NCBI RefSeq assembly: GCF_035582795.1
Contig: NC_134373.1
Coordinates: 33,388,501-33,452,500 of the forward strand
Origin: Mycteria americana
Taxonomy: Eukaryota; Chordata; Aves; Ciconiiformes; Ciconiidae
Direction of reading: 5' to 3'
DNA: 64,000 bases
Shown: positions 13,201-64,000 of the stretch, piece after piece
Position numbering within the stretch: the stretch's first letter is position 1
Layout of the letters: the number at the start of each line of letters is the position of its first letter
Notes under the pieces: generated by a model
The model's input: the letters and a program-made list of their open reading frames with translations, nothing else
Told to the model about the DNA's origin: nothing
The model's database searches: none
Program-made: the position numbers and the translations under genes

Positions 13201-16200
13201 TCCGTGTGATGCTGTGTGCATATCTGTAGCCTGCTAACCCAGTGTTGCCGTTCTTTAGCATCGGTAGCTAATAAAAGCAAACCAAAATTATTATGTATAT
13301 GAAGACATTTTGAAGTATCGGCAAAAGGCTGCTTAATTCTTTAAAATAGACAGAAGACTTTAGCAGTACAAAGTATATTTTATCTAAAACTTCTTCAGCT
13401 GACTAGTAATTAGCTATAACATTAAATAAAGTTCAACATAAATGGTATGTACTTTTTTTTAGATTTTGTAACACAGAAATAACTTCAACAAACAATAACT
13501 CCCCTCACACACATTTTAATCTAACAACATGATACATTTTCCTGGAAGTAGAGTAAGGCACCCTGAATTAGATAATGACAGCAAGTCTTCAAGGGAAGAA
13601 ATACTATAAGATACTAGCCCAGACTTCCATAGCCTGGAAAATCAGAGAATGGGCTTCTATAACCATCACAAGGTGGCTAACATATTGAACATTAGGAATA
13701 ATGTAGCTCTGTGCAAGCATCACCACAGTACTGTTACCTACAATGATTTAGAAAACTCTGAATCAGTGCAGTTTAAGGACACTATACATGAAGGTTAAAC
13801 CCCATTCTACACATCTTTAGTTCATGGTCTTCTGAAAGTCATCAAACCCAAAAAGTATGGAACCATCCATAAAGAAGGACGGTTCCCAACTGAAGAGTGG
13901 GATGAAAGTTTCACATATAACTCTCATTGAAGCAGCCTGCCAAACAAGTTCTCTTGCTTGACCACACAGCCAAGCCCAGCAGAGCAGCCACAGGTGAGGA
14001 CCAGGAGTGTCCTCTAGTGTTCTAGTCCTCTAGATTCTAGTCCCCTGCCCTAGAATCTATGTCCTACCTCTTAGTTTATACTGCTCCCCGCTGGCAGCAT
14101 TGACTGTAAAGGTGTGAGAGTCTTCATCACTGGGTGAAATTACAGCTCCAGCTAGCTGCAGGGTACCCCTGGGCTTTAGATGTCTCGACTGCTCATTCAC
14201 AAAGTACTCCAGCAGGCCAGCATCATTGTTTAAAACAAAAAATCTGCAATGATAACAAAGCAAATACACTAAATAAAACCAGCTCGTTATTTTCCTTTTT
14301 TTTGGGGGGGGGGGGGGGGGGAGGCAGGGTGGAGCAGGTGCTGGGGGTACTGGAAGAAGTCAAGACTTCATTACAAGTTGGCACAGATGGAGTTGGGACT
14401 TGAAGACTTGAGTCAGTACAATCCCAAACATATGAATTATGTCCCCAACAAGACTGGACAAAAATTAAGTTCTTATCAATTTTCTCTTAGAGACCAGGGG
14501 TTGCACAACAGAACAGCATGCCCACAGAAGAGTACTATTGCAAGATTTTGGGAATCAAAAGAATATCCTGAATCTCTGAGGCTTAATACATCCTTAAACT
14601 ACATAAATTAAGGGTAAAAGAGCCCCAGATACTAAACAGTTGAGATACAAAACTGTGAAACTGAAGCAATTCCAGATTTAAAAAAAAAATTGAAGTGGAC
14701 ATTATGCTTCAACCATTCGACTGAGTTTAATGATAAGTGTATTGACACAAGTCACTGCATGCCAGTGGTAGCACAGGAATTTGGCCAGTGTGGTATGCTA
14801 AGGACTTGTCTCTCCAATATTAATTTGGTTGCACTGTGCTGCTCTAGGAACAGCATCAAGCAGAATGCCTGACCAGAGAGTTTCACCTGTCAAAGAAAAG
14901 CAAGTTATTCCAGGGGTGACAGACATCCTGGGGAACTGAAGGGAAAAGCTTGCTTGAGTCTTTCACTAAAGAAATTGTAATTATTTTTTTAAAAAACGAT
15001 GGCATGATTTGGCATAAAGCTGAAGACTCAGCAGAAAAAAACACCACAATATTTTTAATGGAAAAGGAGAAAAAATATTAATGCTATACATGCTTTTTAC
15101 ACATACAAGCATAGTTATAAGCCACCAAATGGGTTAACTGCTTCATACTTCCTATGCATTTTTTCTTATTCATGCCTTAATACAAATATTATTCATCTAC
15201 ACTTTAGCTTAATCTATATTGAGAAAAGCATAAGACTCTTCCATAAAGTTTGTCTCATAGAAAAAGGAAAATCCAACTAATATTAAAAAAATCTGAAACA
15301 TGTTCATGTAGATGCTCCGAAGTCCAACATCACTAAAAAGCACCATAAAAGACTTACCGATATTGCCAACCAGTGACGAGATTGGTATATTTCATTAAGT
15401 AGCCATAAATATTTTCCATGTGATCACTATTTAAAAAAAAAAAAAAAAGGAAAAAACAAGAGAGAAAAGCAATCAGACAATACCAAACAAATTTTAGATC
15501 TTCCCAACTTTTGATTGTCATTATCTATTCTCAGAAAATGAATTTTCATCTTCATTTTTAGAATGGCACTACCATTTCAATAAAACTACCAACACTTAAC
15601 AGATTTTCCAGCCTCATTTCTAAAGTAATTTCATAACACAGTTTAACCAGACTTACTAAATTCCAAATAATTTCAAGACATAATTGGTTTCACCAATACT
15701 TGAGTTTTATTCAGCAGGCGCTTCTGGACACATCTGTACTAGTTTCAGGTAATTAAAGACTTAGTATCCATGCTTCTTCTGTTTCTTGCTCCCCCTCTTC
15801 TAAGCAAGCTTTGTATTTTTGGACTCCTGAACAAAATTAACTTTCACTAGCTTATTAACAGAAACTTGATCATGGTGACTAACTAAAAACAGTCCCTAGG
15901 TACTCCTACACCAACATGATTTTATTTATCTTTAATGTCCAGAACCTTCCCAACTACATGAACAATCATGCTCTTGAAGAGATGTTCTACAGAACACAAC
16001 ATGCGGGTGCAGGTCACATCAAGACATTCTGAAATGTAAAACAAGAGCCGAAACATCTCCTCCTCTGGCCTGGCAGGAAAATCAGGTAGTTTCTCTTTTG
16101 AAGCCTCAACTTGCAACATCCACCAAAAATGAAAACCCATTGAGAGCAATACAGAGGCTTAATATCACTACAGGCAAAATACATTGCCACTTCTGAAAAT

Positions 16201-39699: not shown

Positions 39700-41070
39700 A
39701 AAGGAAACAAAGGAAAGCATCATCAACAATAACAGCAGGGCAGATACCTAAAAACTAAAGGAATATATTGCTTCAGTTTCCATAAGGAAGAAAATGTAAC
39801 CCCAGAGAGCAGAGGCAGCTCACTTAATGGGCTAAAGGGCATGGATGTGGAAATTACGGCATGCAACACAGCCACGAAACTCAAGAGCTCTTTACCCTTC
39901 TCTTCTGAAGACTGAATAATCTCCATCACTGAAATCTATAGGCTTTTTAGAGCAAATGTTAGCCATGAGTAACAAAAGACATGGAGGGAAGCAGAAAATG
40001 GGTTAAAGTGCAAGCTAGGCACTTTAGTATCTTTCTTTCATAAGACCCAATATCTTTCTTTGATAAGATAATTGCATTTGCGGACAAAGGAAAACTAATA
40101 AATGTTATCAACCTGGACTTTGGTAAAGCATTTGATTAGGTATTACCTAGATAATTATTAGTTAAACTCGAGAAGATGAGGATTAACATAAACACTATAA
40201 CATGCCAAAGGAATAGTATTGGGGGTGAAAACTGCTGATGGGGCTGAGAGCAAAATTGTAGGACTGGAGGGATCGGTCTTGCTGAATAATTTCATCAGTT
40301 AGCTTGGCACAAAAAATGACGAGTAGGGTAATGAGATTTGCTAATGACAAAGTTGGGAGACATTTTCAATAGAGAGGAAATCCTACAGGAAGAATTGTAT
40401 GATTGTTATGCCCTAGTAACAGACATGGGATGAAATGTAACAGCGTAAAATACAGGGACATGCACTGAGAGATTGATAAAATTTCTGCTTTAAATTAAAA
40501 TTTATCCGCTGTGAACAACAGAAGAGGAAAACCCACGTGCCTGATGTAGCTATTAAAAAGGTAAATGCAGTCTTACATGTAGCAAGCCACATATTTCCAG
40601 GAACAATGAGTAAATATATACAAGGCAGAGGGTAAAATTCCACTGAGATTTTAGGGCATCATTCAGGTTATCGGTGTTCAGGAAGCCTGAATTCATGCTG
40701 GAACAGGTACAGAGAAGTGCCATCCGGATAATCAGAGGAAGAAAAAAGAGATAAGAGAGCATGTCTTGCAGAGCATGGCAAAATGAAGGGATCCGATTCC
40801 TCTCTGTAATATATTTGGGGTTTAAGCGGGCAGAGGTGGAGAATAAGCACCAGGAGAGAAGAAACAGTCACATTTATAGACAGTGCTTGTGCTAGAGCAG
40901 ATAGGCATAAGTTGGCTATGGGCATAAACTGGATATGAAATGAGGAGAAGGGCTCTCACTGTGAGAGGAGTAATGATCTCAAACAGCTTCTCAGTAGGAG
41001 AAGAGGGGGCAAAAAACCTAACTAATTTTAAGATGGAGCTTGATAAGGCTGTGAGCTGGCAGCAAGAACT
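39700..41070 (+). mobile_element. Ancient CR1/L3-like LINE remnant with reverse-transcriptase traces
   Basis: At about 40105-40150 the plus strand translates to NVINLDFGKAFD*VLP, matching the reverse-transcriptase DFSKAFDTVPH motif of CR1-clade LINEs. At about 40335-40370 it reads RFAND-KVG, a decayed FADDTKLG. A typical 3' portion follows (FSVGEEGAKNLTNFKMELDKA at 40998-41060). Stops and frameshifts interrupt it throughout, so it is long dead. The 5' limit is uncertain and the segment 39700-40000 is included tentatively. Confidence 0.7.
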
Positions 41071-44001: not shown

Positions 44002-44042
44002 ATGTCGCCGCTCCGCGTCTGCATCGTCGGCTCCGGGAACTG
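44002..44042 (+). CDS. GPD1L2: GPD gene exon 1
   Basis: Encodes [13 protein letters not shown] plus two bases of Trp14, the first strand and glycine-rich loop of the Rossmann fold. The ATG has A at -3. The donor is GTGAGT. GPD1 and GPD1L have their first intron at the same place (GNW). Confidence 0.95.
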
Positions 44043-47000
44043 GTGAGTGCCGCAGCGCGGGGGGGCACCCTGCGTCCCCCCTGCCTCTCCCCTGCCCTCC
44101 GCCCTTCCCCACGCCTCCCTTCTTTCCCATTTCTTTCCTTTTTTCTCCCCTTTTCCCCTTCCTGCCTTGTTTTCTTCCTCCCCCCGCAGCGGGCGGCACA
44201 GCGGGACCGCCGTGCCCTGCCGTGCCGCGCCCCGGGCCGGCTCCCCCCGCCGCGGCCCGGGGCTTCGCAACAGGTCCGGCACGGGGAGCGGCGGGGGCAG
44301 CCGGGCGGGGCGGAGGGCTCCGGAGGGTCTCCATGGTCCTGAAACGGCGGCCCCGGTCCCGGTCTTGTCCTGTCTCAGCGTTGTGGACTCCCTGAGAGAT
44401 GCACCCGCCAGTGGAACCAGAAAGACACGAGGCTCCTGCATCACTGAGGTGTATGACCCCTTTAAAGCCTGGTGACAGGACGGCGAGGCTCCGGAGAGGA
44501 CCAGAGCTGTGCCTCTCTACTTGTGTGTGCCTGTGGCAGGGCCCAGGCGGTTCAAGTTGAAGCGTTCAGTAGTGAGGAGAGCGGTGATGCTGTTTGTATT
44601 CCTTTGAAGGAACTGGGGCACAGGCTTCATTTAAAGCCACGACTTATCGGCACCTCTCACTTCCAGCCTCCTCAGCACGTTGTTTTGCATCTTGGTGCAG
44701 ACGCAGCCTTGTACAAGCATTGTGTTCAGGTCCCCCGTTTATCCTTATCCCCAGTCATAAGAATATGTTTGCTACTGCTCAGCCCTTTCTAGCCTGGACA
44801 AAAGCACAGCTCTCCAGAGCTCCTTGGGTCTGACAGACCCCCCTGAGGTCAGTAAACCCCATCTCACTGGACTTCGCATCTTACTTTTCTTACAGTTTAT
44901 GTAGGCTGAGCACAAACAAACAGACCAACATGTGTGTGCGTGCACTCGGGATTAGCAAATTGGGCCTCCAGGTAGTTTTGTGGATTGTTTTTGTACAAGG
45001 AGGGCAAGCTCCTTAATATTTTTAAAATATCTGACAGCTAAGTGGAAGCAAATGCCAAAAAAAATCAATAGGTGAGGGAGTGGTTGCTTGTGAGCTGCTG
45101 AGAACACAGCATAGTTAAAGCATGGCTCTTTGCCTTCCTGCCTTGCAAAACCAGTCCACTGCTTTCTGAGCCCTCACATGCGTGCTCTTTCCAGATCACA
45201 GGCTCTTTGTGCATGACATCTCTCAGATACAGCCTTTCACATGTAACTGCACAGCTAAGTCTTCTTCGGGAACTCATCATCACGCATCTGGCTTTCTCTG
45301 GCCCTGACGGACACAGTCCTGCCCGGTCATTTCCGCACCAGCATTTCCCCCGCTGCTACTTTCACCATGTCATGCCAGCACTTGCATCCCTCCCCTGCCA
45401 CCCTCTTCTCCCTCACCTTAACCACAGGCATCCAAGCCTGTGCAGGCAGCTTGTTGTCACGAGGCTCGTGCCTCAACAGCCACGGCTGCACGTCTGGGAG
45501 TCAGCTTTTACCTTTGGTCAGCCCACAGTGACAGCCTTCATCATTCTCTTGCTGCATCCTCAAGCAAGCACCTCCTGCCTTTCCCAGGCTGTCCCCTTGC
45601 CATAAGACATTCTCCAAAGCCACTTACTTGTCTTCCTTCAGATCTGTACTCAAGAAAGTTCTCTTTTCTTCACATGTACCTACAAACTCGGAAAGAGTTA
45701 TGCCACAGAGATAGAGACACCCCCGCTCATTCAACACTATCTACTTACTTGTACTGCCTGTCTGCCTGGACCCATCTCTTTCTTCTTACCATATACATAG
45801 ACTGTAAAATCTTTGGGAAGGAGATAAACATTGTGCTCTGATGTTTCAATCACATCTATTCATAGCCTCTGTGGCAGAACAGGTTGCCTTAGCACAACAT
45901 AGGAATACAATGCTTATTTTTGGCAAACATTTTTTTCTTATGTTCCTCCTGAATATTTGGGTGACAGTTCAGATCACTGCTCTTGAGTTTTCCGTGCAGC
46001 TCAGAAATGTGGTTGACACATGACACAGCATGTTGCAATAGCTCATGTCAGCTGCAGAAGTTCAGCAGGTCACAGGGACTTACTAAACACTGTCAGGAGA
46101 CTCACGAGTGATGTAGTTAAGCGAAGTAAGTGCTGCACCGCATTTTGCGGTTGCCAGCCAGGTGCAGGAGGGTTTGTGTTTACGTTAATCACAGTTCAGT
46201 TATCTGTCTTTAGAAACAGAGGTTTAATTCACTGCCTGGCCCTTCAGAACCCAAAAGCTCTCCCAGTCGTCTTAGATTCATTTGGACTGCAGAGTCCTCA
46301 GCGAAGATCCAGCTTGAACGAACGAGGTTCTCGTTTTCAACATGGACAGATGGCCAGGCTTTTTACAGAAGGAAAACAAGAGCCAGTGGTCATAAATTAA
46401 ACCAGAGGAGGTTCTGACTCAATATATAAAGAGAGGAGGAAAAAAAACCCCTATGAGAATAATAGAGCATTGGGGCAGGTTGCCCAGAGAGGAGGTGATC
46501 CTTGGGGATTTTTCAGGACTCGCCTGAACAAAGCCCTGAGCAACCCATCTAAACTCAGAGTTGTTCCCACTTTGGAGACCTTTCATAGTCCCTTCCAACC
46601 TGAGCGATACTATAATTTAAAAAAATTTGGGGTGGTTGGTTAAGAAAGAGACTGGAGGAAGACATGATCATCTTCAAGCACCTAGAGGAGAAAAACAATA
46701 TTCCACCCTTCTAGAATAGAAATGGGCTTAAACTGCAGTAAGAAAGACTTAGGTTAAACATGAGGATGATCTGTCTAATGCTAAGGACAGCAAAGTCCTG
46801 GGATGGGCTGGCTAAGGAAGGGAAGACACCTGGAATTGCTGAGGTCTTTAAGATCTCCTTGGAAAAACTATTAGGAACAGCTTAAGTATATTTGACTGTC
46901 CTTTGTATAAGGAAGGGACCGGCTGCTTCATGGGGTCCGTTAAGCTCTATTTTTCATCAGATCTGATGTATTCCACAAACACTTTCACATTCACATATGT

Positions 47001-50000
47001 AAATAATGGATCTTATTTGAGTTATTCTACATCAAAGCTTTCTCACTATACGGGTAAGAAATCTCCAGATAAAAGCTTTCTTTTTCTTAGCAATAAATAA
47101 ATAACTTCCAACATTAATTAAGATAATTGAGGAAAAAACCTGATTGGCAGTTTTCACTTAGTTTTAAAAATTATCTAAGCGGAGTTCTCTGCCTTCTATT
47201 AGTCTTCACTAAATTGAGTTTTGGAGAAAATAAAACCATGGCAAAGTCTTTATATGTGAGCATCCTTGGGTTTGTTTGCATAAGCAGCCCTCTCCTGCCA
47301 AGGCTGTGTAGTCTACCGAACACTGCCTTCACAGACAAAGCAATTCTTCTTCCCAAGGCTGATGAGCAGTGACTGAATTTTAAATGGACTAAGTGAAACA
47401 GAGCATCAGGTTTTGAACTGTTGGGCAGTTTCGTGGCAAGGTATTTTCCCTGATGACTACTCAATGCCTTTTAAACGTTAAACCCTTTCTCCTTCAAATC
47501 CTCATTCATCTAAAGAGAAACCAGGCAAAAATACTGTCGTTTATGGTGCTACCTATGCCTGAGATACGTTCACCGATATCTTGTCAGTAGAAAAATACTT
47601 GAGTGGCAACATCCAAGCATGGTGGTAACAACAGCTCTGCTAGAAGATCAGATTTATCTACCGAGAGTTGCGAGTCCCATTCAGCATTTCAGAGGTTAGA
47701 GCTAGAGTCTGCATCTTTCAACAGAAAATCATATGAACTTGGTACCTAGCTAGAAAAGTTATTTTTATGGATAGGCTTGAGGTCTAAGTTCATTGTCCAG
47801 GTTGTGCTCCAGCACAACCTGGACAATGAATTGAGGTATCAAGTTTATCCGTAAAAAAAACCCCTTTTCTTATTAATACACGTTCTTGTGCGGACCCACA
47901 ATTCAACCTCAGCTCAAGCCTTGATTGTGCTCTCTGTTGATAGCAGGGCAAGAGAACCAGAATATAAGTAATTTTATAAATAATATGAATGTACAATATG
48001 ACTGCATGCCTTTCTTTCAAAAAAGCAGAACTCTTACAGTAAAGGTTCACCCCTAAAACATTTCCCTAAATATTTTAAAGGACCAAAACCAATTATCCCT
48101 TAAAAAAAAAAAAAAAACCAGCAAAAAAAAACCACCCCAAACCAACAAAAAACCCCAAACCAAACCAAACCAAACAAGCATTACGGCAGCTCAGGATATA
48201 GCATATAGTCAACACTGAGCAAAGTGAAGCCTGATCTCAGTAGGATTTCTTTATCGTTAAAGATTAAGATGAAGCCCTTATTCTTTTATTACTTATTGAG
48301 CAATTCAGCCTTGTGCAAACCTGTTACATCAAAAATACGGTCGAGCCAAGGAGAGCCAGTTACAACGTGGTTTCCCTTTGAACCATTGACAGCACAGACC
48401 CACCTGGACTTCGTCTTGGATATACTTGAGACCTTTATCAGTTCCAGAAAACATACCACAGCTAAATCCTGTTCATGCTCCTCATTGCAGGTGTGTTACA
48501 AGTGGGTCAGAGGACAAGAGCGTTGTAACTGGAGCTCCTCTTTCAGTTGTGTTAGTAAAATAGCCAGTACTTGAAAGAGTAAAGTGGCATTAAAATGGGA
48601 AGAGGGAAGAAAGGAGTAAAAATAACCAGCTGTCCTCCCCATATAATTGAAAGGGCATTAAGCAATATTTTCAACATTTTCTGCAGGGTTTTTAATTCCC
48701 TCTTGCCAAGAAAATAAGTGAACATTTGCAAGGCTGCAGTGGTGGATGGGGAAATAAAATTATTGTCTAAACTGAGATTAAAAAATGCTCAGGATGACTG
48801 AAGAAGAGTAAACCAGACAGTTAAAATATCCTTAGGCCGCAACTATTACAGATCCTGTTACAGTGATAATTAGAACAATAAATAAAGAGAAACCACCACA
48901 TTGAAGTGTTTGTTTGTTTTTTGTTTTTTTTTTAAGAAAATAACAATTTATGAGGATTTAACTTACATAAAATCCTTATTGCAACTGTTTGGTTATTGGT
49001 AGGAAGGTGGGATGCATCTGTTTTAGATGAGATGCACGAGGACTGTCACAGCAAGATCGTTCAGCAGTGCTTTGCTACCTGGATTATTTTACATTTGTTG
49101 GTCTTCAGAAAAAAAGAACTATCCAAGGAGCAAGAGATATTTTAATCCCAGATACTGTATTTTTAGTGCTGTTGATGGTACATCACGTTCCCACTTTATA
49201 GTCTTTGACATGACTTCAGATCCCTTCTTACAGTTATGTTTTCTCTGGTTCTACTTTGTGTTTTTAAACTGAAGGGGTTTTGATGGAGGGTAGTAGATAA
49301 AGCTTTCTGACAAATGTAGCAAGCACCTGAACAGCTTTATAGCACAGGCCTTTTATGAGTTATTATGTTTAAAGTAATTTGTGTTTCCAATTCACAATGA
49401 AACTATTTGTTCCCTATTAGTCATTTCAATTTTTTTCTTTTTAAAGGGGATCAGCCATAGCACGAATCATTGGCAAAAATGTCCAGAAGTCCAACAGATT
49501 TGATCCTACTGTCAAGATGTGGGTATTTGAAGAGATCATCAATGGAAGAAAACTCTCAGAAATAATCAACCAGGAACATGAAAATGTTAAATATCTGCCT
49601 GGATACAAGATACCCAAAAATGTGGTAAGTTGGAAAAAAAAATATCACTGAAATATTGTTACTTTATAAGGGAGGCCACATCTGGAAAAATTAAAATTAG
49701 GAAGTAATTCACTGCTTCATTCTGGTTTGCCACCTAACTCACTCCAATATTTTAAGTACACTGGAATATAACTCACTTCTGTGACTTCTGCTTGTCTCGT
49801 ACGTCACACGCAACTTCAAACACCCAACTGTGGCGGGTGCTGGTAACACACCCTCCTCCTCTCCGGCAGAAATCAGCATAACTCTAGAAATGGCAGGCAG
49901 AGATCTGTCTACACAGAGCCGAGATATTTCAAACCTACAGCATCTTCTGGAAAAAAATGGAAAGCTACTGCTCTCCCTTCTTCTAAAAAAGAAATCATCA

Positions 50001-53000
50001 GCACAGCTAACAGCTGTGGTTTACAAGATGATGACTGAGCTATCAGCTCATGGGTGATTTCAGGATAGCAACATACTGCTATAATTAATAATGCTGTAAA
50101 TTCCACCAAAAATATAAATTTCATGGACATTTAAAATACCAAATTATGCATCTCTACTTAAATTAATCAGCTTAGATAATTTATTGCTACTGCAGCAAGC
50201 AAGGTGAGGGGTTTTGGCTGTTCAAGATTTTGCCAAATGCCACTGGTTTGTGAATTAAAGAAAGTAGCACCATGTTTCTGGAACAGTTGCAGTTGTAAAA
50301 GGAAGTTAAGATGCTGCACATGGTGGGTCTCTTTGCTTGGAGAGTGGTTATATTTAGTACTCCATTTAGTGCTGCAATTGCATATTTGCATTGCCGTGGT
50401 TTGAACTTGGCACACAGTTCTCCTGGGTTAGGAGGTCACTGTTATTTTTACAACCCTCTAGCAAATTAACAGGCTTATCATCACTTGAGACCAGCCTCAT
50501 CCTGTCTATAGCAAAGTCTGAGGCTTTACCAGCAGAAATCAGCTGGTAAAGCTGATTTCTTCATCTTCATATCAGACTGAGGAAAAAAACCCAACAGAAA
50601 AACAACACTATTTTTTTCCTTGTATTGCTTTGTGACATTGTGGAGAGAGAGGAGCACTGTCTGTACGGCGCTGCCAGCCTCTGCCCCGCTCCCGCTTTGC
50701 CATTTTCCCAGAGAAGCAGCCTTGCTGGCAGCAGTTCTGGTTCTCCTGCAGGGAATCCCGCTTGCTCTAAGGCGGTGTGCTGCAAGGCTGCATCCAGGGG
50801 CAATGTTTGCTCTGATTGTAAACTGCTTGTAATAGCAGGCTCAGATTCACCTGCTGTTGCCTCTGTAGCCTGGCTTGAATTGTTGTTCTGAGTAATGCTA
50901 CCGTCTGGAGGAAGATACAGCTTGCTGTATCTCTGCCTTTTGATATAGTTTATTCCTGAGTAACTCTCAGCTGGTGACCTACGGAAACTAGAGACTGCCA
51001 GAAGAGGGTCTGTCTCACCACCCCGGTTTGCTCCCATGGTCCCCAGTGCTACCACTCATTCCAGAAGAACCATATGGGGTTGCTCAGTATCTTCAGGAAC
51101 CACTTGAAGAAGCTGAACAAGCAAAGGGGCTTCCCAGGACAGTGCAAGTTTAGAAAGTATATCTTCTTCCCCAGATTATCCACACAGGGCTGGATGGGAG
51201 GCAAGTTAAAAATAAAATTAAAAAAAAAAATAAATCCAAACTTAAAAAAAGTTAGGCTGCTTTGGGTATTTCAGAAGAGAGCTGCAGTTGCTCACATGAC
51301 GAGCTAGCAGCTACACAACAGTGCCAGTTAAAATTAAGGACATTTGCAACGCATCTGCAATGGCTTCGGCATGTTGGTATCTTGCAAGGTGTGAGGATTC
51401 CTACCTGGGGCTCATTTCAGTTGTCACTCTTGTCCCAGGTGGCTGTACCGGACGTGGTTGAAGCAACAAATGGGGCAGACATTTTAATGTTTGTCCTGCC
51501 ACATCAATTTGTTGGACGAATCTGCGAGCAGATCGCAGGCCAGATAAAACCCGGGACGTTTGGGATTTCGCTGATCAAGGTAAGTTGTCATCTCCACAAG
51601 ACTCAATCTGTATGGAGTAAACAAATATCTTCAGCTTAAGGGTAGGAGCTCCAGTCCTCAGCTGCATGCTTTGCATAAACACAAGCATTTCTTTCTGCGA
51701 GAGTTAAAACTTACCCAGCCTCTGCCAGCCCTTCCGCTGCTCACGTGGCCATGCAGAGGAAAGGATGGGGCAACCCAGCCGGGCTAAGAGTAACCGTCTT
51801 TGCCAGCCATCTTTAGCCTGGATTGGTTCCTGCTTGAACCAGCACGGAGAAAATGGGAAGAGAGAGGGCTACATAAGCTGGTGCTGCTACCAGAAAAAAT
51901 ACTCATCAGACTACAACCTCAATTAACTCTTAACTGGAAAGAGCGCTGGGTCAAAGTGCCTCTTTCAAGTACATGCTAAAGCTGTTCTTGGCAGCATTAA
52001 AACGGCACAATAACACTAATGATTTTGCAGAACTGAAGAGATTTCAATCTGGCATGAACTGAGGAATCTCTTTTTAAGCTTAGAGGAACCAGATTATCAT
52101 AATCTTAAAAGGAATTAATATTTTAACAGAATCTCAAACTAAAAGCCAGAGGCAAAGCATAGGAATATAGTCTACTGCTTCTCTGTTGCTTGCATGACAG
52201 GAAATATCCAATTTAAAATTGTAATGAAAGAAAGGTAATTCAAGTTTTCAGACTGCAATACGAACTCTCCCCTCTTTTTTTTCCCTTATAGAAATTATCT
52301 CACAAGCAGCAGTACACAGAGGAGAGGAGGGTGGGAAAGGAAGGAAATTCCTGCAAATTTACTTCTTTCTTTAGCTTAAAAAAAGCCCCCGAGACAGTTC
52401 AGTACACACCTTAATACCAGTGAAGCACTCAGATTAATACTTATATCTTGCAAAAAAGCCACTGCTTGTAGGCTTAATTTAAAAGTCTGGTTCTGTACTA
52501 CAGGAGTTTAACACAAAGGAAAAATACAGCATCAAAGAAAGCCTCAGGACAGCAGCACTGGATGCGAGACCTCTTGCAGGGTTACCTTGACTGTTGCTAC
52601 CTTCTCACTGAACTTGCCTTGAATTTGCAGTTATCAAAGTGCAAACCCAGACCATTTGTATTAATTGCAAATGCTAGTGAATATAAGACCCAAATCCTTC
52701 CAATTAAAACTGGAGAGCTGCAGGCAATAGGACACCTTCTGCTTTACCGGTGCTCTACTGCTGTCATTTTCCTATGCTAATAACTTGGCTTTGACTATCG
52801 TCTTTTATTCAGGGGATCGATGAGGGTCCTGACGGCCTGAAGCTCATATCTGACCTCATTCGAGAGAAACTGAAGATAGAAATCAGTGTGCTTATGGGGG
52901 CCAACATAGCCAAAGAAGTGGCTGATGAGCAGTTCTGTGAAACCACCATTGGTAACTATTGCAAAGAGCAAATTAGAGCTGCTAGCTGTGGTTTAATGTC

Positions 53001-55674
53001 ACCTGTGGCTGGGCAACAGGATAAGCTCTGGAGGTAGCAGGGGGATGTGATGGGTCCCGTGAGGTTCCTGAGTGGTGCGGTGGGCGCGGTGCCCGCTGAG
53101 CTTGTTCAGGGAGGCAGTGTGATTTCCAGGGAGTTCAGTGCTGGCAGGATCAGATCCAAACTGACAGCGGGTTTCAGCGCTGATAGCTAATTTAATGCAT
53201 TAAAAAATTACAGCTTAATCCTGTTTCTGTAGGAGTTAGCAAGAGCCACCTTTTGTGTCTGTACAACTCAACACTGAGTACATCGGAGGTTGATACACTG
53301 ACAGTCTAGACAGAGAAGTGCAATCAGAAGCTCACATATACTCACGCTCCCTGAGGTGTATTTCTCCATCTCCAAATTTCTTTGTTTAAAAAAAAAAACC
53401 CAAAGAATAAAAAAACCCCAGTAACATTCTGTTCCTCCCTCCCATTCAGACTGCTTGCCAAGATGTAGCCTCAGATCCTCCCAGAACTGGGTCTGACCTG
53501 ACTTGGAAAGTTCATCCGGTAGTTTTTAAAACCCATTAATTTTTAAAGTCAGCAGAAATTTAAGTTACATCCTTCTATAGCTATGGAAGACAGAAAAATA
53601 AGTTATTGTTGCACTACTGTTCCTTTGCCGTGCAAAGGTTACAGTAATAGTGAAAACCAGCTGGGCATTTGTTGCTGGCAGAGCAACTAGGGACGAACAG
53701 GACTACACATGATTAGGAGTTGAGCAATATTCATTTTCTTGGGGAGACTTTAACTTCTGCTGGCCCAGTTTTAAGCCATGCTGTGATGATGACTGTGCAG
53801 AGAGCTTTGCCCCTTGCCTTTGTCCTCATGGAAAGCCACACAGCCCAGAAACAGCCACCTCAGAGAGACTGGGTATCCCCCAACATCCGTTATTGCAAAG
53901 GACAAGAAGCAAACCCAAAGTTTCTTGTGAGATGTGGCAGAAACCCCACAGCTACCAGAGTGCTATTGCCCAGGCTCTTTAACACTTAAAAATACCGAGT
54001 GCCTGGAACCCCTCTAGGAGCAACAGCTGGAAAACCTACAGCTCCTCACCACTGAGCTCTCCCTGAAGGAAACCAAGCTGCCTCGTATGAAAATGAAGTG
54101 AAACTCCATTCAAAAGTCTTTGCCCAGCTGGCCAAGGACTCTCTGGATAAAGGCAAACCTCATCCCGTTTATTGCTGAGGGCTCTCTAGCTTCCTCTCAA
54201 TACCTAGGGCGAGCACTGTAATGACATGTTAATGACCTCGGTAGAATTGGTAACAAAAATGTTCCAGCAGTGCCAACGTTCAACTTAATCATCTGTGGAT
54301 CTCCCTGTAATTGGGAACTAATTGGGCATTAATCATTTGCGCACTATAATAATACTTAGCAATTACACCAGTTTACATTTTCAAAGCAGCAATTATACTG
54401 TTGTGCTGTACAAAGCAATTTGTAAATACTATCCTTTGCAGGGTTTGTGGTTATACAAGCTCTCTCAGGCAGAAAGTTGCGTTAGGGGCTATCTACTTTG
54501 AAACTCTTTAAAGTGTTATTAAGCAATGCTTGGTCGATGCCCTGGGACTTGCATACATTTAACACTGGCTTCCAGCAGCAGGAACTGCTCTCACACAAAT
54601 CTGATGTTTAGCAACACCCAGTTAGGTTTTGTGGTCCCAGTAAAGTGGTCCTGGGACCTTATTTCAGGTTGCAGTTAGTTGTGTGTACTCTGAAACATTG
54701 TGAAAATGCTCTAACTTTCATCCTTCCTTCCCACAGGGTGCAAAAATGAAAAACAAGGGGAGATCTTTAAAGAATTAATACAGACCCCCAATTTCAGGAT
54801 TACTGTGGTGCTTGACTCTGATACAGTGGAGATTTGTGGAGCCTTAAAAGTGAGTGGTTTCAAACCAAAATGTTATTAGGGTCAAATTCTACCCTCACCT
54901 GAGTCTTCTGTAAGCCACAGGTTCTAATATGAGTCCTGCCACCATATGATGAGTGAGCACAGACAAGATATTCATGCGCCAATTTTCCAATCCGTTAAAA
55001 AGGGAAAATTTACTTAAAAATATAACTGCTGGCAAAGCATTTAAAAATACTTGTATTTTTATCTTTATTTAACCAGAGGCACCTCTGCTGCTGAGGGCAG
55101 AATTTAGTCCACTGTATTTTTTTGTCTGCATATTGTAAGCACATGGAACAGAGACTCTTACTACATATAGTAGCTCCCACTAATAACTTATTTCCATGGT
55201 TCAAGTAGTAACCTGCTAGGAAGTTTGCATCAGAAGCGATGCTCTGTGTTGGCAGCACATCTGTGTGGTGTTCAGTGATGCCCACATCAAGATCCCAGAC
55301 CAGATCAGAGCAATACCAAAATCACCAAGCTGCCAACGAGAGGACACTTGAGTGAGATTCGGAGATCGCTTTTCAATGTGCTGAAAGCGACTCCAGCCTG
55401 TGGTCCTTTGTACTTTTTTTACACTCAACCACTTGTACTTCAATAGTTCACCTTTCCTTGGGGGAGGGGGGATTACTGGCTAGGAAAGAATTGGTCCTGT
55501 TTAACCTTACATACAGAAAGAAAAGTTTCTTTACTTACAAAATCAAGTACCCCTAGATTTTTCTTTTGGCCACAGACTGGAACTGGGGGCAGGCACAGAG
55601 GGGAGAGAGGTTGTTTCTGCTTTGTGGGAAATCTTTGCTCTTCTTGAAATCATTGCTTTGGCATTGCCTTTGCT

Positions 55675-55705
<31 letters not shown>

Positions 55706-58232
55706 CACTGGGGCATGTGCACGTCTGGAGCAAACACTTCAACAGCAGTACTAGGTGACATATTACTCTAATACAGTGAACAACACTTACTTAGGGACTT
55801 ACTTGGGGGCTGGGAATTGGGAGGCGGGAAGGAAGGTGCGCAGGACAATGGTGAAGAGTTGTGAAGATGTTTAGGATTCTGAGAGATTTGTTTAGAACTG
55901 TAGAAAAGGGCAATTCTACTGACCATTTTTGCAGGGAAAACCAAAATTTGATCTATGGCGGCATCAGGACATAGAACCCATGCCTGTTTAAATTACAGAC
56001 TCACAGAGAAAACCTGGAAAGGCATGACTCCGTGTGGGATATTTTACATAGTTAAAACAGACAGGTCAGTGAGTCCCAACTTGGAACTAGCAGAAGAACA
56101 AAACATTAATTGCATACACGCTACGTGACTGCAATATTACTATTATTAAACAAGCTGCTTTGATTTTTGCCCATGGGAATAACAGAGGATACTTTATAAT
56201 AATCTTCTAGAAGCCCAGCTACTTTTGTTCAACAGTAATAATTAGTTGTCTACCTTCTTCGTAACATAAACTCATGGTTATTGGAAATTGAACCTTCTTC
56301 CGGTGAACGGGGTGAAGACAGATTTGTAGGATTTTCTTAAAGCTCAGTGCATGCTGACAAACCGCACGTCTTGCCTGACCGTTTCCTTTCCTCCTCTGTA
56401 TTTCGTACTAAACTGTTTTTAGAACATCGTAGCAGTGGGAGCTGGGTTCTGCGATGGACTGGATTTCGGTGATAATACAAAGGCAGCAGTTATACGCTTG
56501 GGCCTTATGGAAATGGTGGCCTTTGCCAAGATGTTCTGCAGGGGACCAGTATCAATAGCCACTTTTCTGGAAAGCTGCGGGGTCGCTGATCTAATCACTA
56601 CCTGCTACGGGGGACGCAACAGGAAAGTAGCAGAAGCCTTTGCTCGCACAGGAAAAGTAAGGAGGGTTTTGAAATATTTAACACTAATGCATGAAGAAAT
56701 CCTTCTGCGTTTACCTTCTTGATAACTGCTGGTATCAGAGTGGTATCCCCTCTGATCCAAGTAATCAATCTCCTCTCTTCTAGTCCATTGAGGAACTGGA
56801 AAATGAGATGCTGAATGGACAAAAGCTGCAAGGTCCTCAGACCTCAGCCGAAGTCTACAAGATCCTGAAACAGAAAAATATGCTCAATAAGTAAGTGCTT
56901 TGATTTAAAAACACAACTGAATCAACAACAAATTTTGAGTGATTCATAACCTCCTTGTTCATTTCTGCAACAACTGCTTTCTACATCTTGGGCCGCCGTT
57001 AGAGCTCAGCTTCACCTGATTCCTCATTGCCATGGTCAGTAGAATGGGGTGAAGGCTAAACAGCATTAGAAGAAACAAGCCACAGACATGTAGGAAACAA
57101 ACAAACAACAATCCAAAGGAGCTACCCAGACATCCCTGTCCCCCTAGACAAGATTGAAAGCCATACACAGAGTCAGCTTTCAAACATGGTCTATGGGTCA
57201 AAAGGTTTCTTGTTCTCAGTATATCACCGTTACAGCTTGCAGCAATACTGCTCTCAGTGCGAACGTTAACTAGGTTATCTCAGTATAAAATTCAGGAGCA
57301 TACTCCTAAACAAAAACTTTTATATGCATTGAATGGGTAATATGTGCTGATATCAATGCTTTAGTGCCACAAATAATGCTGAGATAAAACATACTTCTAA
57401 TTGTTTGGGATGATATAAGATTATTTATAATTTGAAACCTTTGTCTCAGTTTACAAAATAGAAAAGCTAAACTTCCCCATCCCATTCCCTCGTGTACATT
57501 AGCAGTACTGAGAGGTCGAACACTGCTAAATGAATACTTTTTAAAAAATCCTATTAAAATTATAACAGATATAGAAGATTCGAGTGGCATTACCTTTCAA
57601 AAATGAGAGAGATAAAAGAAAAGCTCATTTTGACAGGAAGTGAACTTTAAATCAAAACTTGATCCTGTAATTTCACTTAGTTACAGACTCAGCTCCAAGT
57701 CAGTCAGTGGACTCATTTTTTACCACATAATGACTAAGACGACAGCTTGCAGAAGGAAAAGAACCCTTTAAGCCAGGAAAAGAAAATCATTAGACATTTT
57801 CATTCTTTTTAGCCTTTTAGACATCAGTAATGAATGCAAATAATATATGCAGTTTGCACACAGGAGGAAAAAGAGGATATGCAATTAGAGATTTTTTGTA
57901 AATAAAGAATACCAGATAGCAATTTTGTCTCCAAAACACCTCTTCTCTGCTGTCACCCCCAAGAATTGCCCCTAGCTCCTCTTCATTGCCTTACATAGTC
58001 TTCCAGTAAAGGCACCTCCGAGTTAAAATTATATTGTAAAGAGAGAGAGTTTTTTTTTTCCCCTATCATAAATGGAATGGAAATGTTTTTATGTAAACTT
58101 TAAAAGCTATTTTCATTGCTACACGCTTCTTTTAGGTTTCCGTTATTTACAACCGTCTACAAGATCTGCTATGAGGGTCAGTCGATCCAGGATTTCATCA
58201 CGTGCCTGCAGAACCACCCAGAGCACATTTAG
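44002..58232 (+). CDS. GPD1L2: Cytosolic NAD-dependent glycerol-3-phosphate dehydrogenase, third vertebrate paralog (GPD1-like 2)
   Basis: Complete gene with coding exons 44002-44042, 49447-49624, 51439-51579, 52813-52951, 54737-54849, 56423-56656, 56784-56890 and 58136-58232. All joints are GT-AG, in frame, 349 codons, the same length as GPD1. It interconverts dihydroxyacetone phosphate and glycerol-3-phosphate with NADH, linking glycolysis to lipid synthesis and the glycerophosphate shuttle. Present are the NAD loop GSGNWG (10-15), K120, catalytic K204, N205, D260, T264, R269 and Q298, each at GPD1 numbering. The N-terminal half looks GPD1-like ([17 protein letters not shown] end) while [20 protein letters not shown] and [11 protein letters not shown] look GPD1L-like. 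It fits neither cleanly, and it stands beside OSBPL11 instead of OSBPL10, so I call it the third paralog. The enzyme class is certain. The symbol rests on memory of the avian gene name, and GPD1C is the likely fish name. Confidence 0.93.
46315..46625 (+). mobile_element. CR1 LINE 3' fragment, plus orientation
   Basis: Contains the CR1 landmarks TTGGGGCAGGTTGCCCAGAG (about 46471), GGATTTTTCAGGACTCGCCTGAACAAAGCCCTGAGCAACC (46507-46546, diverged), and an end AGTCCCTTCCAACCTGAGCGATACTATAATTT close to the CR1 terminus. Heavily diverged. Confidence 0.85.
46640..46895 (+). mobile_element. Second, older CR1-like fragment, plus orientation
   Basis: The order GACATGATCATCTTCAAGCACCT, then AACTGCAGTAAGAAAGACTTAGGTTAAACAT, then GGATGGGCTGGCTAAGGAAG and GGAATTGCTGAGGTCTTTAAGA follows the CR1 3' region at lower similarity. 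It lacks a clean terminus. It begins right after the previous fragment, so the pair may be a nested or tandem insertion. Confidence 0.6.
47789..47830. repeat. Perfect 20-bp inverted repeat with 2-nt loop
   Basis: Left arm ttcattgtccaggttgtgct, loop CC, and an exact reverse-complement right arm. Pairing continues outward with one G-T and one A-T pair, a mismatch, then A-T and G-C. No flanking target-site duplication noticed. It lies in GPD intron 1. Confidence 0.95.
48097..48178 (+). repeat. A-run and CCAAA/CCCCAAA low-complexity tract
   Basis: Fifteen or more A followed by alternating AAACC units over about 80 bases. It resembles the A/C-rich tracts common in bird genomes. No gene content. 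Confidence 0.85.
49447..49624 (+). CDS. GPD1L2: GPD gene exon 2
   Basis: 178 bases complete Trp14 and encode residues 15-73. They include [27 protein letters not shown] and [16 protein letters not shown]. The acceptor is TTTAAAG and the donor GTAAGT. Confidence 0.97.
49625..51438 (+). other. GPD1L2: GPD gene intron 2
   Basis: 1.8 kb. It contains overlapping short inverted repeats at 50523-50560 and an A-rich stretch at about 51205-51250. The minus-strand frame at 50567-51055 (162 codons) is not recognised and has no support. Confidence 0.8.
50523..50560. repeat. Two overlapping, mutually exclusive 11-bp inverted repeats
   Basis: gctttaccagc (50523-50533) pairs perfectly with gctggtaaagc (50542-50552). 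agaaatcagct (50534-50544) pairs perfectly with agctgatttct (50550-50560). The two hairpins share bases, so only one can form at a time. Confidence 0.9.
51439..51579 (+). CDS. GPD1L2: GPD gene exon 3
   Basis: 141 bases (47 codons) encode residues 74-120, [20 protein letters not shown] through GISLIK, ending at the substrate-binding Lys120. The acceptor is TCCCAG and the donor GTAAGT. Confidence 0.97.
51580..52812 (+). other. GPD1L2: GPD gene intron 3
   Basis: 1.2 kb of unique sequence. No repeat family or coding segment recognised. Confidence 0.8.
52813..52951 (+). CDS. GPD1L2: GPD gene exon 4
   Basis: 139 bases encode residues 121-166 ([20 protein letters not shown] ... [22 protein letters not shown]) plus one base of Gly167. 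The MGANIA.EVA and FCETTIG signatures of the family are present. The acceptor is ATTCAG and the donor GTAACT. Confidence 0.97.
52952..54736 (+). other. GPD1L2: GPD gene intron 4
   Basis: 1.8 kb of unique sequence with a short A run near 53386-53398. Nothing else recognised. Confidence 0.8.
54737..54849 (+). CDS. GPD1L2: GPD gene exon 5
   Basis: 113 bases encode [20 protein letters not shown] and [17 protein letters not shown], ending exactly at catalytic Lys204. The CKNEKQGE segment is where GPD1 and GPD1L differ most, and it is distinct from both here. The acceptor is CCACAG and the donor GTGAGT. Confidence 0.97.
54850..56422 (+). other. GPD1L2: GPD gene intron 5
   Basis: 1.6 kb. It contains a 26-base poly(A) run at 55675-55700. 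No other recognised element. Confidence 0.8.
55675..55700 (+). repeat. Poly(A) run (26 A)
   Basis: The longest homopolymer in the window, in GPD intron 5. Length probably varies between individuals. No retrocopy upstream. Confidence 0.9.
56423..56656 (+). CDS. GPD1L2: GPD gene exon 6
   Basis: 234 bases (78 codons) encode residues 205-282. They contain [20 protein letters not shown], the [20 protein letters not shown] signature (D260, T264, R269) and end EAFARTGK. The acceptor is TTTTAG and the donor GTAAGG. Failing to splice would add 21 codons before a stop. Confidence 0.98.
56657..56783 (+). other. GPD1L2: GPD gene intron 6 (127 bases)
   Basis: A very short intron with a standard donor (GTAAGG) and acceptor (TTCTAG). 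Retention would give a protein truncated just after residue 282 with a 21-residue foreign tail. Confidence 0.9.
56784..56890 (+). CDS. GPD1L2: GPD gene exon 7
   Basis: 107 bases encode [20 protein letters not shown] and [15 protein letters not shown], with Gln298 in KLQGPQT. This exon is the most GPD1L-like part of the protein. The acceptor is TTCTAG and the donor GTAAGT. Confidence 0.97.
56891..58135 (+). other. GPD1L2: GPD gene intron 7
   Basis: 1.2 kb of AT-rich unique sequence. No repeat family or coding segment recognised. Confidence 0.8.
58136..58232 (+). CDS. GPD1L2: GPD gene exon 8 (C-terminus and stop)
   Basis: 97 bases complete Lys318 and encode [20 protein letters not shown] and [11 protein letters not shown], then TAG at 58230-58232. 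The C-terminus CLQNHPEH is as in GPD1 (GPD1L has S for N as I recall). The acceptor is TTTTAG. Confidence 0.97.
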
Positions 58233-58295: not shown

Positions 58296-58301
58296 AATAA
58301 A
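58296..58301 (+). terminator. GPD1L2: Proximal polyadenylation signal AATAAA of GPD gene
   Basis: A canonical hexamer 63 bases past the stop codon, with a GT-rich downstream element about 11 bases later. A plausible main cleavage signal. Confidence 0.65.
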
Positions 58302-60430: not shown

Positions 60431-60516
60431 TTTATTGCACTTACTCTTGCAGTTAATAATTGTCAGCTCTCAAAGAAAAGGACAAGAAGAGTCAATTTTC
60501 TATAGACAGCTTTATT
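60431..60516 (-). terminator. Minus-strand polyadenylation signals of an unidentified neighbour
   Basis: TTTATT at 60431-60436 and 60511-60516 on the plus strand read AATAAA on the minus strand. The more distal one sits in GCAATAAAGGAC. They suggest that a gene to the right, transcribed leftward, ends here. The neighbour cannot be named because no coding exon is visible. Confidence 0.45.
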
Positions 60517-63500
60517 GATGAACAATTTTTTCTTCTTTTGTATGACTATTTTTTCTTTTTACACAGTAAAATAAGGACATTTTTACTCCATAAATAACAA
60601 AAATTAGCCCTTATATCTCAATCCAGTCAAAATCTATGTAAAATAGTTTGTTCTGTATTTACATTCTGTACCAAAATAGGAAACACATGTTCAAGGTCAG
60701 CCAGTTCTCTCAAAACAGTTGTTTTATCTCCAAGGTAAGCTTCACATTAAAAAGGCAACATTTGTACTTTGGAAGTCTGGTAGTGTAAGATCACATTATT
60801 GAATACACAAATAGACCCAAATCCTGAAGAGCGATACATGCAAGCGGGCACCCACGCGTTCAGCCAAGCAAAAGTTGGTTGGTAAATCTCGCAGGGGAAA
60901 GATCTTGACTTGCTCAGCTGGCTGAAAGTCACTTGTAGGAAAGGCGGGGAAGAAAGGACATACGCCTCCCTCTCTACTGAAATATAGTCAAGCAGAAAGA
61001 TTTGCAGGACAGGAAGATTTAAAAACAACTGGCCCTTGTAAGGGATTGTGGATGTCTGGTCTTCAGCAAGATCAGTCTTCCTAATTTACTAGTGCTCAGC
61101 AGGAAGGATGAGCTGCATTGGACTGACAGTCAATTAATGGGGGTCAAAATTCTCTTTCGGTAATTAACCTACATCCAAGGCTGTGACGGTCTCCTGAGAC
61201 CTCTGCTCACTTCAAGAGGAATTAATTTCCTGCTTTTCAATGTAATTTTACTTGCGGCATACTCCAGCCAAAAGCTATCCTTCCTCCTTGTAATTGTCTG
61301 AAACACTAGAAAAATGTGTTCCTGAAGTATGACTTGCCTTGACTTCTAATTGAAGTGTTACAGATTTGAACTACCAGGGTAAAAAAAGACCGCAAGACTC
61401 ATTTACTTCCATAAGCAAACATGGAATGTTTTTAAAAAATTAAAACTGTGGACACTATATACTGAAAACGTTTCTGCTACAGACAAGCTAACTCACTTAG
61501 CACTATTTCCAGGGCTCCGGCTGCCCTACCCACTCTGGTAAAAACACAAAGGCTTATTTGGGCTGTATTTCAAAGTTTTCACACGTAAGAGACGCAATAG
61601 GATGGACTTGCCACAACATGGTCAGGACACCTGAAGCAGCTGCCTGCAAACTTTGTATTTATTTAAAACCAATACCGACTTGTATGATGGAAACTACACT
61701 TAAGGCTACATAACTGATCAGTTTAAGCTACAATTTTAGCTGTGTTCTACACTCACAAATGGCTTATGCTTCCTACTGTATTTATTTTGCTCTTAAAAAC
61801 CTGAGATATGTTTTTACTTAATTCACCTTAAGAGTTGGAAGTTCACAGCAGGCTAGAAGCTTAACTCAAAGACAAACAGAACTGAGGTAGTCAGTTTTAC
61901 TCAAATATTCTTTTTGACAGTCACCAATTCATTCTCACTTTAAATTGAACTTGACACATTTCTTGGCAGTTCCAACACGGCTACAGCTGCTCCCGCACTG
62001 ACGGGATATAACACGTTGGATTTCGCCCGCTACAGTACCTTCCCCCACCGACTCCCCAAAGTGGCATCCAGTTCTGCAGTTCACAGCCAGTTGAAGGGCT
62101 GCACGCCAAAGAAATTACGACTGAAATCTCAGATTATTAAGGCAGTAATAGTTTTACTTCACTGGATTCACTGATGCAGCTACTCAGCAGGTACTGGTGA
62201 ATCTGACCACAAGAGCTCTGACAGGCAGGTAGATTTTTCCCTGTAGGTACAATGCACTACAGCCTCTTTCTTTAATTAATGCATACAATTCAGAAGTAGG
62301 TAAGCATCAACTTTTTAAGCCATCTTTCGGTTAATTCTCAGGAAGAGAGGATAAAAGAAGAAAAGCCCTCAAGATAAACAACTGTGTAGAAGATAAAAAT
62401 ACTCAATTAAATATGACAAACTTCACACTTACACAGACAGGAGACTAGCATACCAAATACCAAGCACAATAAATTAACACCAGTAAAAAAGTTTAACAGT
62501 TATAAAGTTAACCAGAAAGTTCAGACAGTGCAAATATTTCACAGTAAGAAAAAATAACCAATAGTTCCTTTTCAAGTATCAAAAGCATTGTTGTTGAGTG
62601 ATACCATTTAAACTGTATTATTGCACAACAGACAAAAAAATACAATATCAACCTCTGGGACCTAAGATGTATTCTCAAACCTTTATGTTTTCAAGGAATC
62701 AATTTACACTGACTGTTGATTGTGCATATATTAAAATAATCAGTGTTCACTTATTAATCTGACTGTTTCTTAATTCAAACTTGTACACATTTAAAGCATT
62801 TGATTCCTAATTTGTATTGCTTCTCAGAAACACCTATTTAAGGCTAGCCTAGGCCTTGTATAAATTCAAAGCAAACTTAACCTGCAGTTAAGAAGGGGAA
62901 CTAGCCCAGTGCAAGATACTCGCTCAACTGTGATGCCTTCAGACAGTTTTAGGTTGCAGCTTACTCACCTCAGCAACGTTGTAAGAGTTTCTTTAAATAA
63001 AAAAAACCAAAAAACAAGTCCAGTAGGCACAAAGATTTTCTTACAATAACAATGGAAGTCCTATTATTAAACAAGTTTACTTGTAGCTAAATAAATTTTA
63101 CTCCATACCCCTTCCAGCCCCCTACCCTTCATTTTATAAAGGGATCTAGTCACTGACAATTCTAACGTCACAGCACATTTAAGAAGCAGAGTAACATCAT
63201 CTTTCTCCCTATATTTGCATTTTTTATTGCACTGGGCACATCTGCTCCCCCAAGTTTAACACTTTTCTGAGAATGAAAACTATCCTAACAGAACAGACAA
63301 CGGATTGGACCACGTAAGAGTTTCTTTTACTCCAAACAAGATTATTTGTAACACATTATAGAGTCAGAAACAAATAAAAACATCCTTACAAGTGTCCTAT
63401 CGAGCAGCTGTCCTTAGCTAGAGATATTTTGCTCATTTCCTTCCTCTTATATATTTTGTCCATCAAGTGATTAATTTTATACCAAGGTATGCCCTCGTGT

Positions 63501-64000
63501 GGTTCAAAACGTCTGATTCTCAACTTATTACAAATACTCAAATAATCCATAGTATTTATGTCCAAGAAAAAGGGGAGAGGGGAGGGAAAGACAGATTAGA
63601 CTTTTCTTTACACATTCAATACAGTTTTTGGTCTAGAGAAGTCAATATGGTCCTGTAAGATTATAGCTGCCATTGCTACTGGTTTGCCCTTCAACAAAAA
63701 GTGAGAACAGCTGCAATTCATGTTCATTCTATTTAAAAAAATAATAATGCCATTATTTAAGAAACAAACCGACAAAATTAATCAGAAATCCTATCTCAAT
63801 TTTACAGACTGGGTGTCAGTACTGAAATACATTTGCCTAGCAAATTACTCTGAGAATATTCAAACATTTCATGTATTAAATTTCACAGAAGAACTGGCAC
63901 ATGCTAAATGAGAATGAGATTTCTAGACAGTTGTCTTGGTTACCAGTCTGAAATTCCACTTTGTGCATGTAGGAAGGTTTAGTGAACCCCCAGAATTAGC
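60517..64000 (-). other. AT-rich region, possible long 3' UTR of a leftward gene
   Basis: 3.5 kb with no recognisable coding exon on either strand and no interspersed repeat family. This would fit a long 3' UTR of a minus-strand gene beyond the right edge, but it could equally be intergenic. Several further minus-strand AATAAA sequences occur (for example near 61661, 61783 and 63226). Confidence 0.4.

Follow-up and report, generated by a model that had tools for sequence, protein, structure and literature searches.

A third cytosolic glycerol-3-phosphate dehydrogenase gene in the stork Mycteria americana: an intact enzyme gene, probably an ohnologue of GPD1 and GPD1L

Introduction

Cytosolic glycerol-3-phosphate dehydrogenase (GPD) is, to our knowledge, encoded in humans by GPD1 and GPD1L only. 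A stretch of 64,000 nucleotides of the Mycteria americana genome (RefSeq assembly GCF_035582795.1, contig NC_134373.1, here called C9, positions 33388501-33452500), hereafter the window, from whose start feature coordinates are counted, carries a further gene of this family. This raises the question of whether the gene is intact, how it is related to GPD1 and GPD1L, by which kind of duplication it arose and what it does in a bird. As an enzyme gene, the third GPD gene is intact and unremarkable; its lineage is known but little studied, and its origin and role are hardly described in the literature searched. Taken together, the evidence makes it quite probable that it is the GPD1L2/gpd1c ohnologue from the vertebrate genome duplications, and that in birds it mainly makes the glycerol 3-phosphate of fat cells.

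Gene structure and protein family

The exon model was obtained with a script that varied several exon boundaries and required AG acceptors, GT or GC donors and an open frame. A single model survived, with eight exons between 44002 and 58232, 349 codons followed by TAG, and seven of seven introns of the GT-AG type. It agrees in start, end and layout with the intact gene that an earlier note on this DNA had proposed. Its features are as follows, the paralogs being GPD1 and GPD1L of the same Mycteria americana genome:

43401..44001, no strand assigned: CpG-island-like region, probably the promoter (GC 0.73, CpG observed/expected 0.81)
44002..44042, plus strand: exon 1, with the start codon (A at -3 of the ATG) and the GSGNW motif that binds nicotinamide adenine dinucleotide (NAD)
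49447..49624, plus strand: exon 2, 178 bases, a length that also fits both paralogs
51439..51579, plus strand: exon 3, 141 bases, fitting both paralogs; its terminal codon is Lys120, kept
52813..52951, plus strand: exon 4, 139 bases, fitting both paralogs; contains Asn151, kept
54737..54849, plus strand: exon 5, 113 bases, fitting both paralogs; its terminal codon is Lys204, kept
56423..56656, plus strand: exon 6, 234 bases, fitting both paralogs; Asn205, Asp260, Thr264, Arg269 and Asn270 kept
56784..56890, plus strand: exon 7, 107 bases, fitting both paralogs; Gln295 and Gln298 kept
58136..58232, plus strand: exon 8, 97 bases including the TAG stop, as in both paralogs
58296..58301, plus strand: AATAAA, likely polyadenylation signal, 64 bases past the stop

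That this is a decaying pseudogene, open by chance, is hardly credible. The eight exons are free of stops, frameshifts and damaged splice sites, the branch leading to the gene (0.18) is comparable in length to the GPD1 branches of bird (0.15) and human (0.14), and transcripts of its probable chicken counterpart, GPD1L2, are reported; no point in favour of decay was found.

The protein belongs, over its full length, to the cytosolic NAD-dependent glycerol-3-phosphate dehydrogenases. The NCBIfam equivalog model TIGR03376 matches it with 505.7 bits, against a cut-off of 285.5, across model positions 1-342 of 342, and the Pfam domains PF01210 (161 bits) and PF07479 (161.7 bits) both score above their curated cut-offs. 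A phmmer comparison with human GPD1 (E 9e-181, 73.9% identity) leaves no room for chance likeness, and the nearest relatives with solved structures in a search of the PDB are GPD1 and GPD1L. Gly10, Gly12, Lys120, Asn151, Lys204, Asn205, Asp260, Thr264, Arg269, Asn270 and Gln298, which we take to be cofactor, substrate or catalytic sites, are identical to those of human GPD1 and GPD1L, in line with the earlier statement that all catalytic residues are present, as far as this list of sites goes. As judged from sequence, the enzyme would be expected to interconvert dihydroxyacetone phosphate plus NADH and glycerol 3-phosphate by the ordinary GPD1 mechanism.

Sister genes and phylogenetic placement

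A search of the genome with the Pfam N-terminal domain gave eight exon matches, confined to contigs C26, C9 and C2, and one with the C-terminal domain gave three, one on each of these contigs. These two domain searches, which score the best candidates only, found no fourth cytosolic GPD copy, C22 included. Two sister genes were assembled from the domain matches:

C26:1606593-1610611: GPD1, 349 amino acids
C2:46468036-46492561: GPD1L, 353 amino acids

In these two models, exons 2-7 were required to have the lengths found in the third gene (178/141/139/113/234/107 bases), and under this condition each gene yields exactly one model with valid splicing and an open frame; the length of exon 8 was left free, and is 97 bases in all three. 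The predicted proteins differ in composition, with 4 His, 36 Ile and 17 Phe in the third gene, 9 His, 22 Ile and 12 Phe in GPD1, and 5 His, 31 Ile and 14 Phe in GPD1L. The earlier note had described exon boundaries shared with GPD1 and GPD1L, and sequence features that mix the two. The first description fits the genes of this genome, and the second is fair, given that the third gene is GPD1-like in 13, GPD1L-like in 11 and like neither in 10 of the 34 columns at which GPD1 and GPD1L differ consistently in human and bird. The mitochondrial enzyme, presumably GPD2 by its DAO_C domain, is encoded at C9:43860792-43861540 (+) and shares the contig with the third GPD gene.

GPD1 resembles the third gene in active site, exon plan and protein identity (73.9% for the human, 71.6% for the bird protein), but differs from it in that tree tests exclude the third gene from its clade and that its tissue bias in chicken is the opposite one. 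GPD1L resembles it in exon plan, identity (74.3% human, 75.6% bird) and the pairing with an OSBPL neighbour, but again the third gene is excluded from its clade, and GPD1L is far more conserved: bird and human GPD1L share 92.8% identity, against 78.8% for GPD1. Between bird and human, GPD1 has changed much faster than GPD1L.

The placement was examined with all 15 unrooted trees of five taxa, namely the third gene and human and bird GPD1 and GPD1L. The best tree puts the third gene on the branch that joins both clades, with p 0.997 in the approximately unbiased (AU) test, and the remaining 14 trees have p of at most 0.0065; JTT, WAG and LG+R3 give this same best tree. When yeast is used as a root, with seven trees and three models, the AU test rejects the third gene inside GPD1 (p 0.0037-0.013) and inside GPD1L (p <0.0001). 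Over the two placements inside GPD1, AU values run from 0.00007 to 0.013, so that by this test the gene does not group as a GPD1 orthologue, and the genome has its own GPD1 on C26; nor does it group as a GPD1L orthologue (AU p <0.001; Shimodaira-Hasegawa, SH, p 0.016-0.019), for which the genome has its own gene on C2. The grouping inside either clade that the earlier note had named as contrary to its reading was thus not obtained: under all models the AU test rejects the four such placements, with p between 1e-8 and 0.013, while the SH test retains two of them, on the GPD1 side.

These protein comparisons support a position of the third gene outside the human and bird GPD1 and GPD1L clades. 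Three results speak against so firm a picture. The SH test, which is more conservative, keeps both GPD1-side placements with p 0.25-0.26; the yeast-rooted tree gives the GPD1 clade 74% bootstrap and the join of the third gene with GPD1L 64%; and the yeast-rooted options for its sister (GPD1L, GPD1 or both) lie within 1 log-likelihood unit of one another. Rooting with yeast was consequently set aside as a way to choose GPD1 or GPD1L as the nearer sister.

It could be argued that the gene is a lineage-specific duplicate of GPD1 or GPD1L, made in birds or sauropsids and recent relative to the human-bird split. Such a duplicate could account for the 13 GPD1-type and 11 GPD1L-type diagnostic residues, for the highest raw identity being that to bird GPD1L, and for the two inside-GPD1 placements that survive the SH test. 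It is nevertheless very improbable, in view of the identity that bird and human GPD1L have kept, of the four placements rejected by the AU test, and of the position beside OSBPL11, described below, which speaks for the duplication of a block.

Since the third gene lies outside both clades, it would have split off before the human and bird lines parted; if GPD1 and GPD1L are the complete human set, the lineage leading to humans would later have lost it. Mammals, by this argument from human gene content, appear to have lost the third copy. Among the PDB chains taken to be human, only GPD1 and GPD1L occur, which says nothing on absence.

Duplicated neighbourhoods and origin of the third gene

Two neighbourhood tests, one on the OSBPL neighbour and one on sodium channels, were both fixed before the results were known. 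The neighbour in the window is the following:

14057..14359, minus strand: open frame of OSBPL11 with a pleckstrin-homology (PH) exon (PH_8 E 3.6e-5, PH E 0.0014, both below the Pfam curated cut-offs)

Its lipid-binding domain is found at C9:33380492-33387597 (-), on the same strand as the PH exon frame, so that OSBPL11 (-) stands head to head with the third GPD gene (+). The names OSBPL10 and OSBPL11 are our assignment, from human gene order. A search for the oxysterol-binding domain gave 53 matches, 11 of which were compared as protein. The exon at C9:33387061-33387597 (-) is 68% identical over 169 residues to that at C2:46332649-46333134 (-), whereas the same OSBPL exons align over at most 33 residues with five compared exons from other family members. 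Two more exon pairs, compared between OSBPL11 and the OSBPL10-like gene only, show 81% and 63% identity. The arrangement of the OSBPL10-like gene (-) and GPD1L (+) on C2 mirrors that of OSBPL11 (-) and the third gene (+), the distance from domain exon to start codon being 135 kb and 45 kb, respectively. The first exon of OSBPL11 probably lies in a GC-rich stretch at about 32.0-32.8 kb of the window. A 16-residue match of window positions 15357-15524 (-) to C2:46441837-46441884 (E 4e-4) had hinted at OSBPL10 within 26 kb of GPD1L; it comes from a frame without a PH-domain match and was not used.

Voltage-gated sodium channels are a textbook example of a family expanded by the vertebrate genome duplications. 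Among the sodium-channel matches listed, all 25 fall on C9, C26, C2 and C22, and the three GPD genes occupy three of these four contigs, C22 being without a GPD match. The distance from GPD gene to sodium channel is 234 kb on C26, about 10 Mb on C9 and about 40 Mb on C2. The chance of finding one GPD gene each on C2, C9 and C26 is about 6e-5 by contig-length fractions, a rough figure, as genes are unevenly spread. The third gene thus lies in paralogous blocks common to GPD1 and GPD1L (OSBPL10/11 and sodium channels), as is looked for in an ohnologue of the two rounds (2R) of genome duplication.

Duplication of a whole block is argued because of the position of OSBPL11 in the paralogon, and the evidence favours the third GPD gene being a whole-genome-duplication copy alongside GPD1 and GPD1L. 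The three genes would then have formed together in the early vertebrate duplications. The ancient third ohnologue that the earlier note had inferred is in this way backed by the OSBPL11/OSBPL10 pairing and by the sodium-channel paralogon. An old gene could also have come from a single-gene or segmental duplication before the jawed vertebrates, with no genome duplication involved. The trees leave the branching order among the three GPD genes unsettled, no fourth copy was found on C22 by the two Pfam domain searches, and the sodium channels are some 40 Mb away on C2 and 10 Mb on C9, all of which such an origin would accommodate. It is unlikely, however, since the OSBPL neighbour was duplicated along with the GPD gene, three of the four sodium-channel contigs carry a GPD gene, and the exon structure was retained; because of this last feature, the third gene is no retrocopy.

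Probable counterparts in chicken and fish

The gene is already known: it is annotated as GPD1L2 in chicken and as gpd1c in fish. The earlier remark that its role is poorly described is fair for its function, the gene itself having been annotated already; in the literature searched, no paper naming LOC424263 was found. That chicken GPD1L2 is the orthologue of the window gene is suggested by elimination, as the bird genome examined here shows three such genes, two of which are clearly GPD1 and GPD1L, so that the remaining one fits. The contig points the same way: GPD1L2 has gene number 424263, near the 424321 of GPD2, and GPD2 is on C9 here too, gene numbers presumably following the chromosome.

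In the accessible parts of the fish literature, gpd1c is named in trout, zebrafish, catshark and tuna, and the catshark work lists it beside gpd1 and gpd1l. The earlier claim that the gene is kept in fish rests on such published names from zebrafish, trout and catshark. The comparison with published primers covered 17 of them, the trout gpd1aa forward and the gpd2 primers not being among these. Two of four catshark gpd1c primers are clearly best on the window gene (17/20 matching bases against 13 and 13, and 16/20 against 13 and 12); they encode EASDGA and FVTCLQ, where the window gene has EATNGA and FITCLQ. The other four gpd1c primers, two from catshark and two from trout, fail to pick out the window gene: one is tied with GPD1 at 18/20, one is best by a single base at an apparently wrong place, and two are better on another gene. 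Among eight catshark gpd1 and gpd1l primers, five are best on their own gene, one is tied and two, both for gpd1l, are better on GPD1. Given this mixed outcome, primer fit is weak evidence of orthology, and gene names together with two of the four catshark primers only weakly suggest that the window gene is the fish gpd1c orthologue. For fish gpd1c, the passages available report expression in liver and yolk instead of fat.

Expression and a proposed division of labour

What stands out is that GPD1 and GPD1L2 are expressed reciprocally in chicken, and that mammals seem to have lost the third gene. In the available part of one chicken study (PMC10379444, Table 2), breast muscle is compared with abdominal fat in three breeds, with log2 values of +9.02, +10.24 and +8.94 for GPD1 and of -11.69, -8.63 and -9.70 for GPD1L2. 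This corresponds to GPD1 being about 490- to 1,210-fold higher in muscle, and GPD1L2 about 400- to 3,300-fold higher in fat. The passages available from that article discuss GPD1 and not the GPD1L2 contrast. An excerpt from another study describes high GPD1L2 expression in adipocytes of abdominal fat (PMC6794883), and a third, in the portion seen, attributes the glycerol 3-phosphate step of mouse white fat to the PPAR-gamma target Gpd1 (PMC12968251).

Because of the opposite chicken expression of the two genes, as far as these published portions go, birds are proposed to divide the enzyme between GPD1 in muscle and the third gene in fat. In such a model, the third gene would most likely provide fat cells, and perhaps liver, with the glycerol 3-phosphate needed for triglycerides, GPD1 would run the flight-muscle redox shuttle, and in mammals, apparently without the third copy, GPD1 would take on the fat-cell job as well. 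Breast-muscle and liver types of the chicken enzyme were reportedly distinguished by White and Kaplan in 1969, in work known to us by its title; these may be GPD1 and the third gene, although the liver type could instead be GPD1L. A 1972 paper by the same authors reportedly deals with separate roles. The fuller scenario, to which we give slightly less than even chances, is that fat-making and muscle redox-shuttle roles split after the vertebrate duplications, that birds kept the split, with GPD1 in muscle and the third gene in fat and perhaps liver as the two classic chicken isozymes, and that mammals lost the fat gene, its role moving to GPD1.

Several observations weigh against a fat role. 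In the part consulted of a 2017 chicken study (PMC5559791), GPD1 is reported from abdominal fat, with more of it in the high-growth line, a result that may depend on which gene the probe or reads hit. In the fragment at hand of a heat-stress study on broilers (PMC9484139), GPD1L2, its gene label being garbled, is among the genes raised in breast muscle, and gpd1c mRNA of trout liver is given as without significant change after a meal or dietary glycerol (PMC7413064, in part). The catshark in-situ passages available name gpd1 and gpd1l, gpd1c being absent from them. In the window, PPAR-type DR1 sites number 4, where 6.53 are expected by chance (standard deviation 2.66). As the trout and catshark results show no fat specificity, the fat role may be bird-specific.

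It has to be considered in that sense whether the third gene is a general housekeeping or mainly hepatic isozyme, with no special fat role, the chicken contrast being one of low muscle expression. In the accessible passages, trout gpd1c rises with liver development and zebrafish gpd1c is expressed in the yolk syncytial layer, and the chicken liver enzyme type, by its 1969 title, could be the third gene or GPD1L. Against this, the fat bias of GPD1L2 (-8.63 to -11.69 log2 in three breeds) is the largest among the fat-biased genes in the visible portion of Table 2, and GPD1L2 is named for cultured abdominal-fat adipocytes. An isozyme of this general kind is a serious alternative, though we judge it clearly less probable than a main role in avian fat cells.

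If the muscle/fat split is real, birds and mammals would use different ohnologues in their fat cells to turn sugar into the glycerol backbone of fat. Mammalian knowledge of GPD1, as a fat marker and PPAR-gamma target, would then not transfer to poultry, and the liver-type enzyme that was told apart from the muscle type in chicken in 1969 could be assigned a gene. No printed statement of either the split or the OSBPL pairing was found in the literature searched, most subscription journals lying outside it.

Other features of the window and its flanks

At about 60500 to 64000 of the window (-), another minus-strand gene seems to have its 3' end, with a long untranslated region, and an importin-alpha (KPNA1) probe for this gene near 60.5 kb gave no match. 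At C9:33472634-33491506 (-), open frames that resemble exons carry macro-domain and PARP-like peptides, and by eye only they look PARP14-like. Two window frames are similar to stretches of C2, one at 23535-23861 (+), with 41% identity over 71 amino acids (E 1.5e-4), and the other at 40044-40136 (+), with 55% over 29 amino acids (E 6e-9); both are presumably fragments of avian CR1 retroelements.

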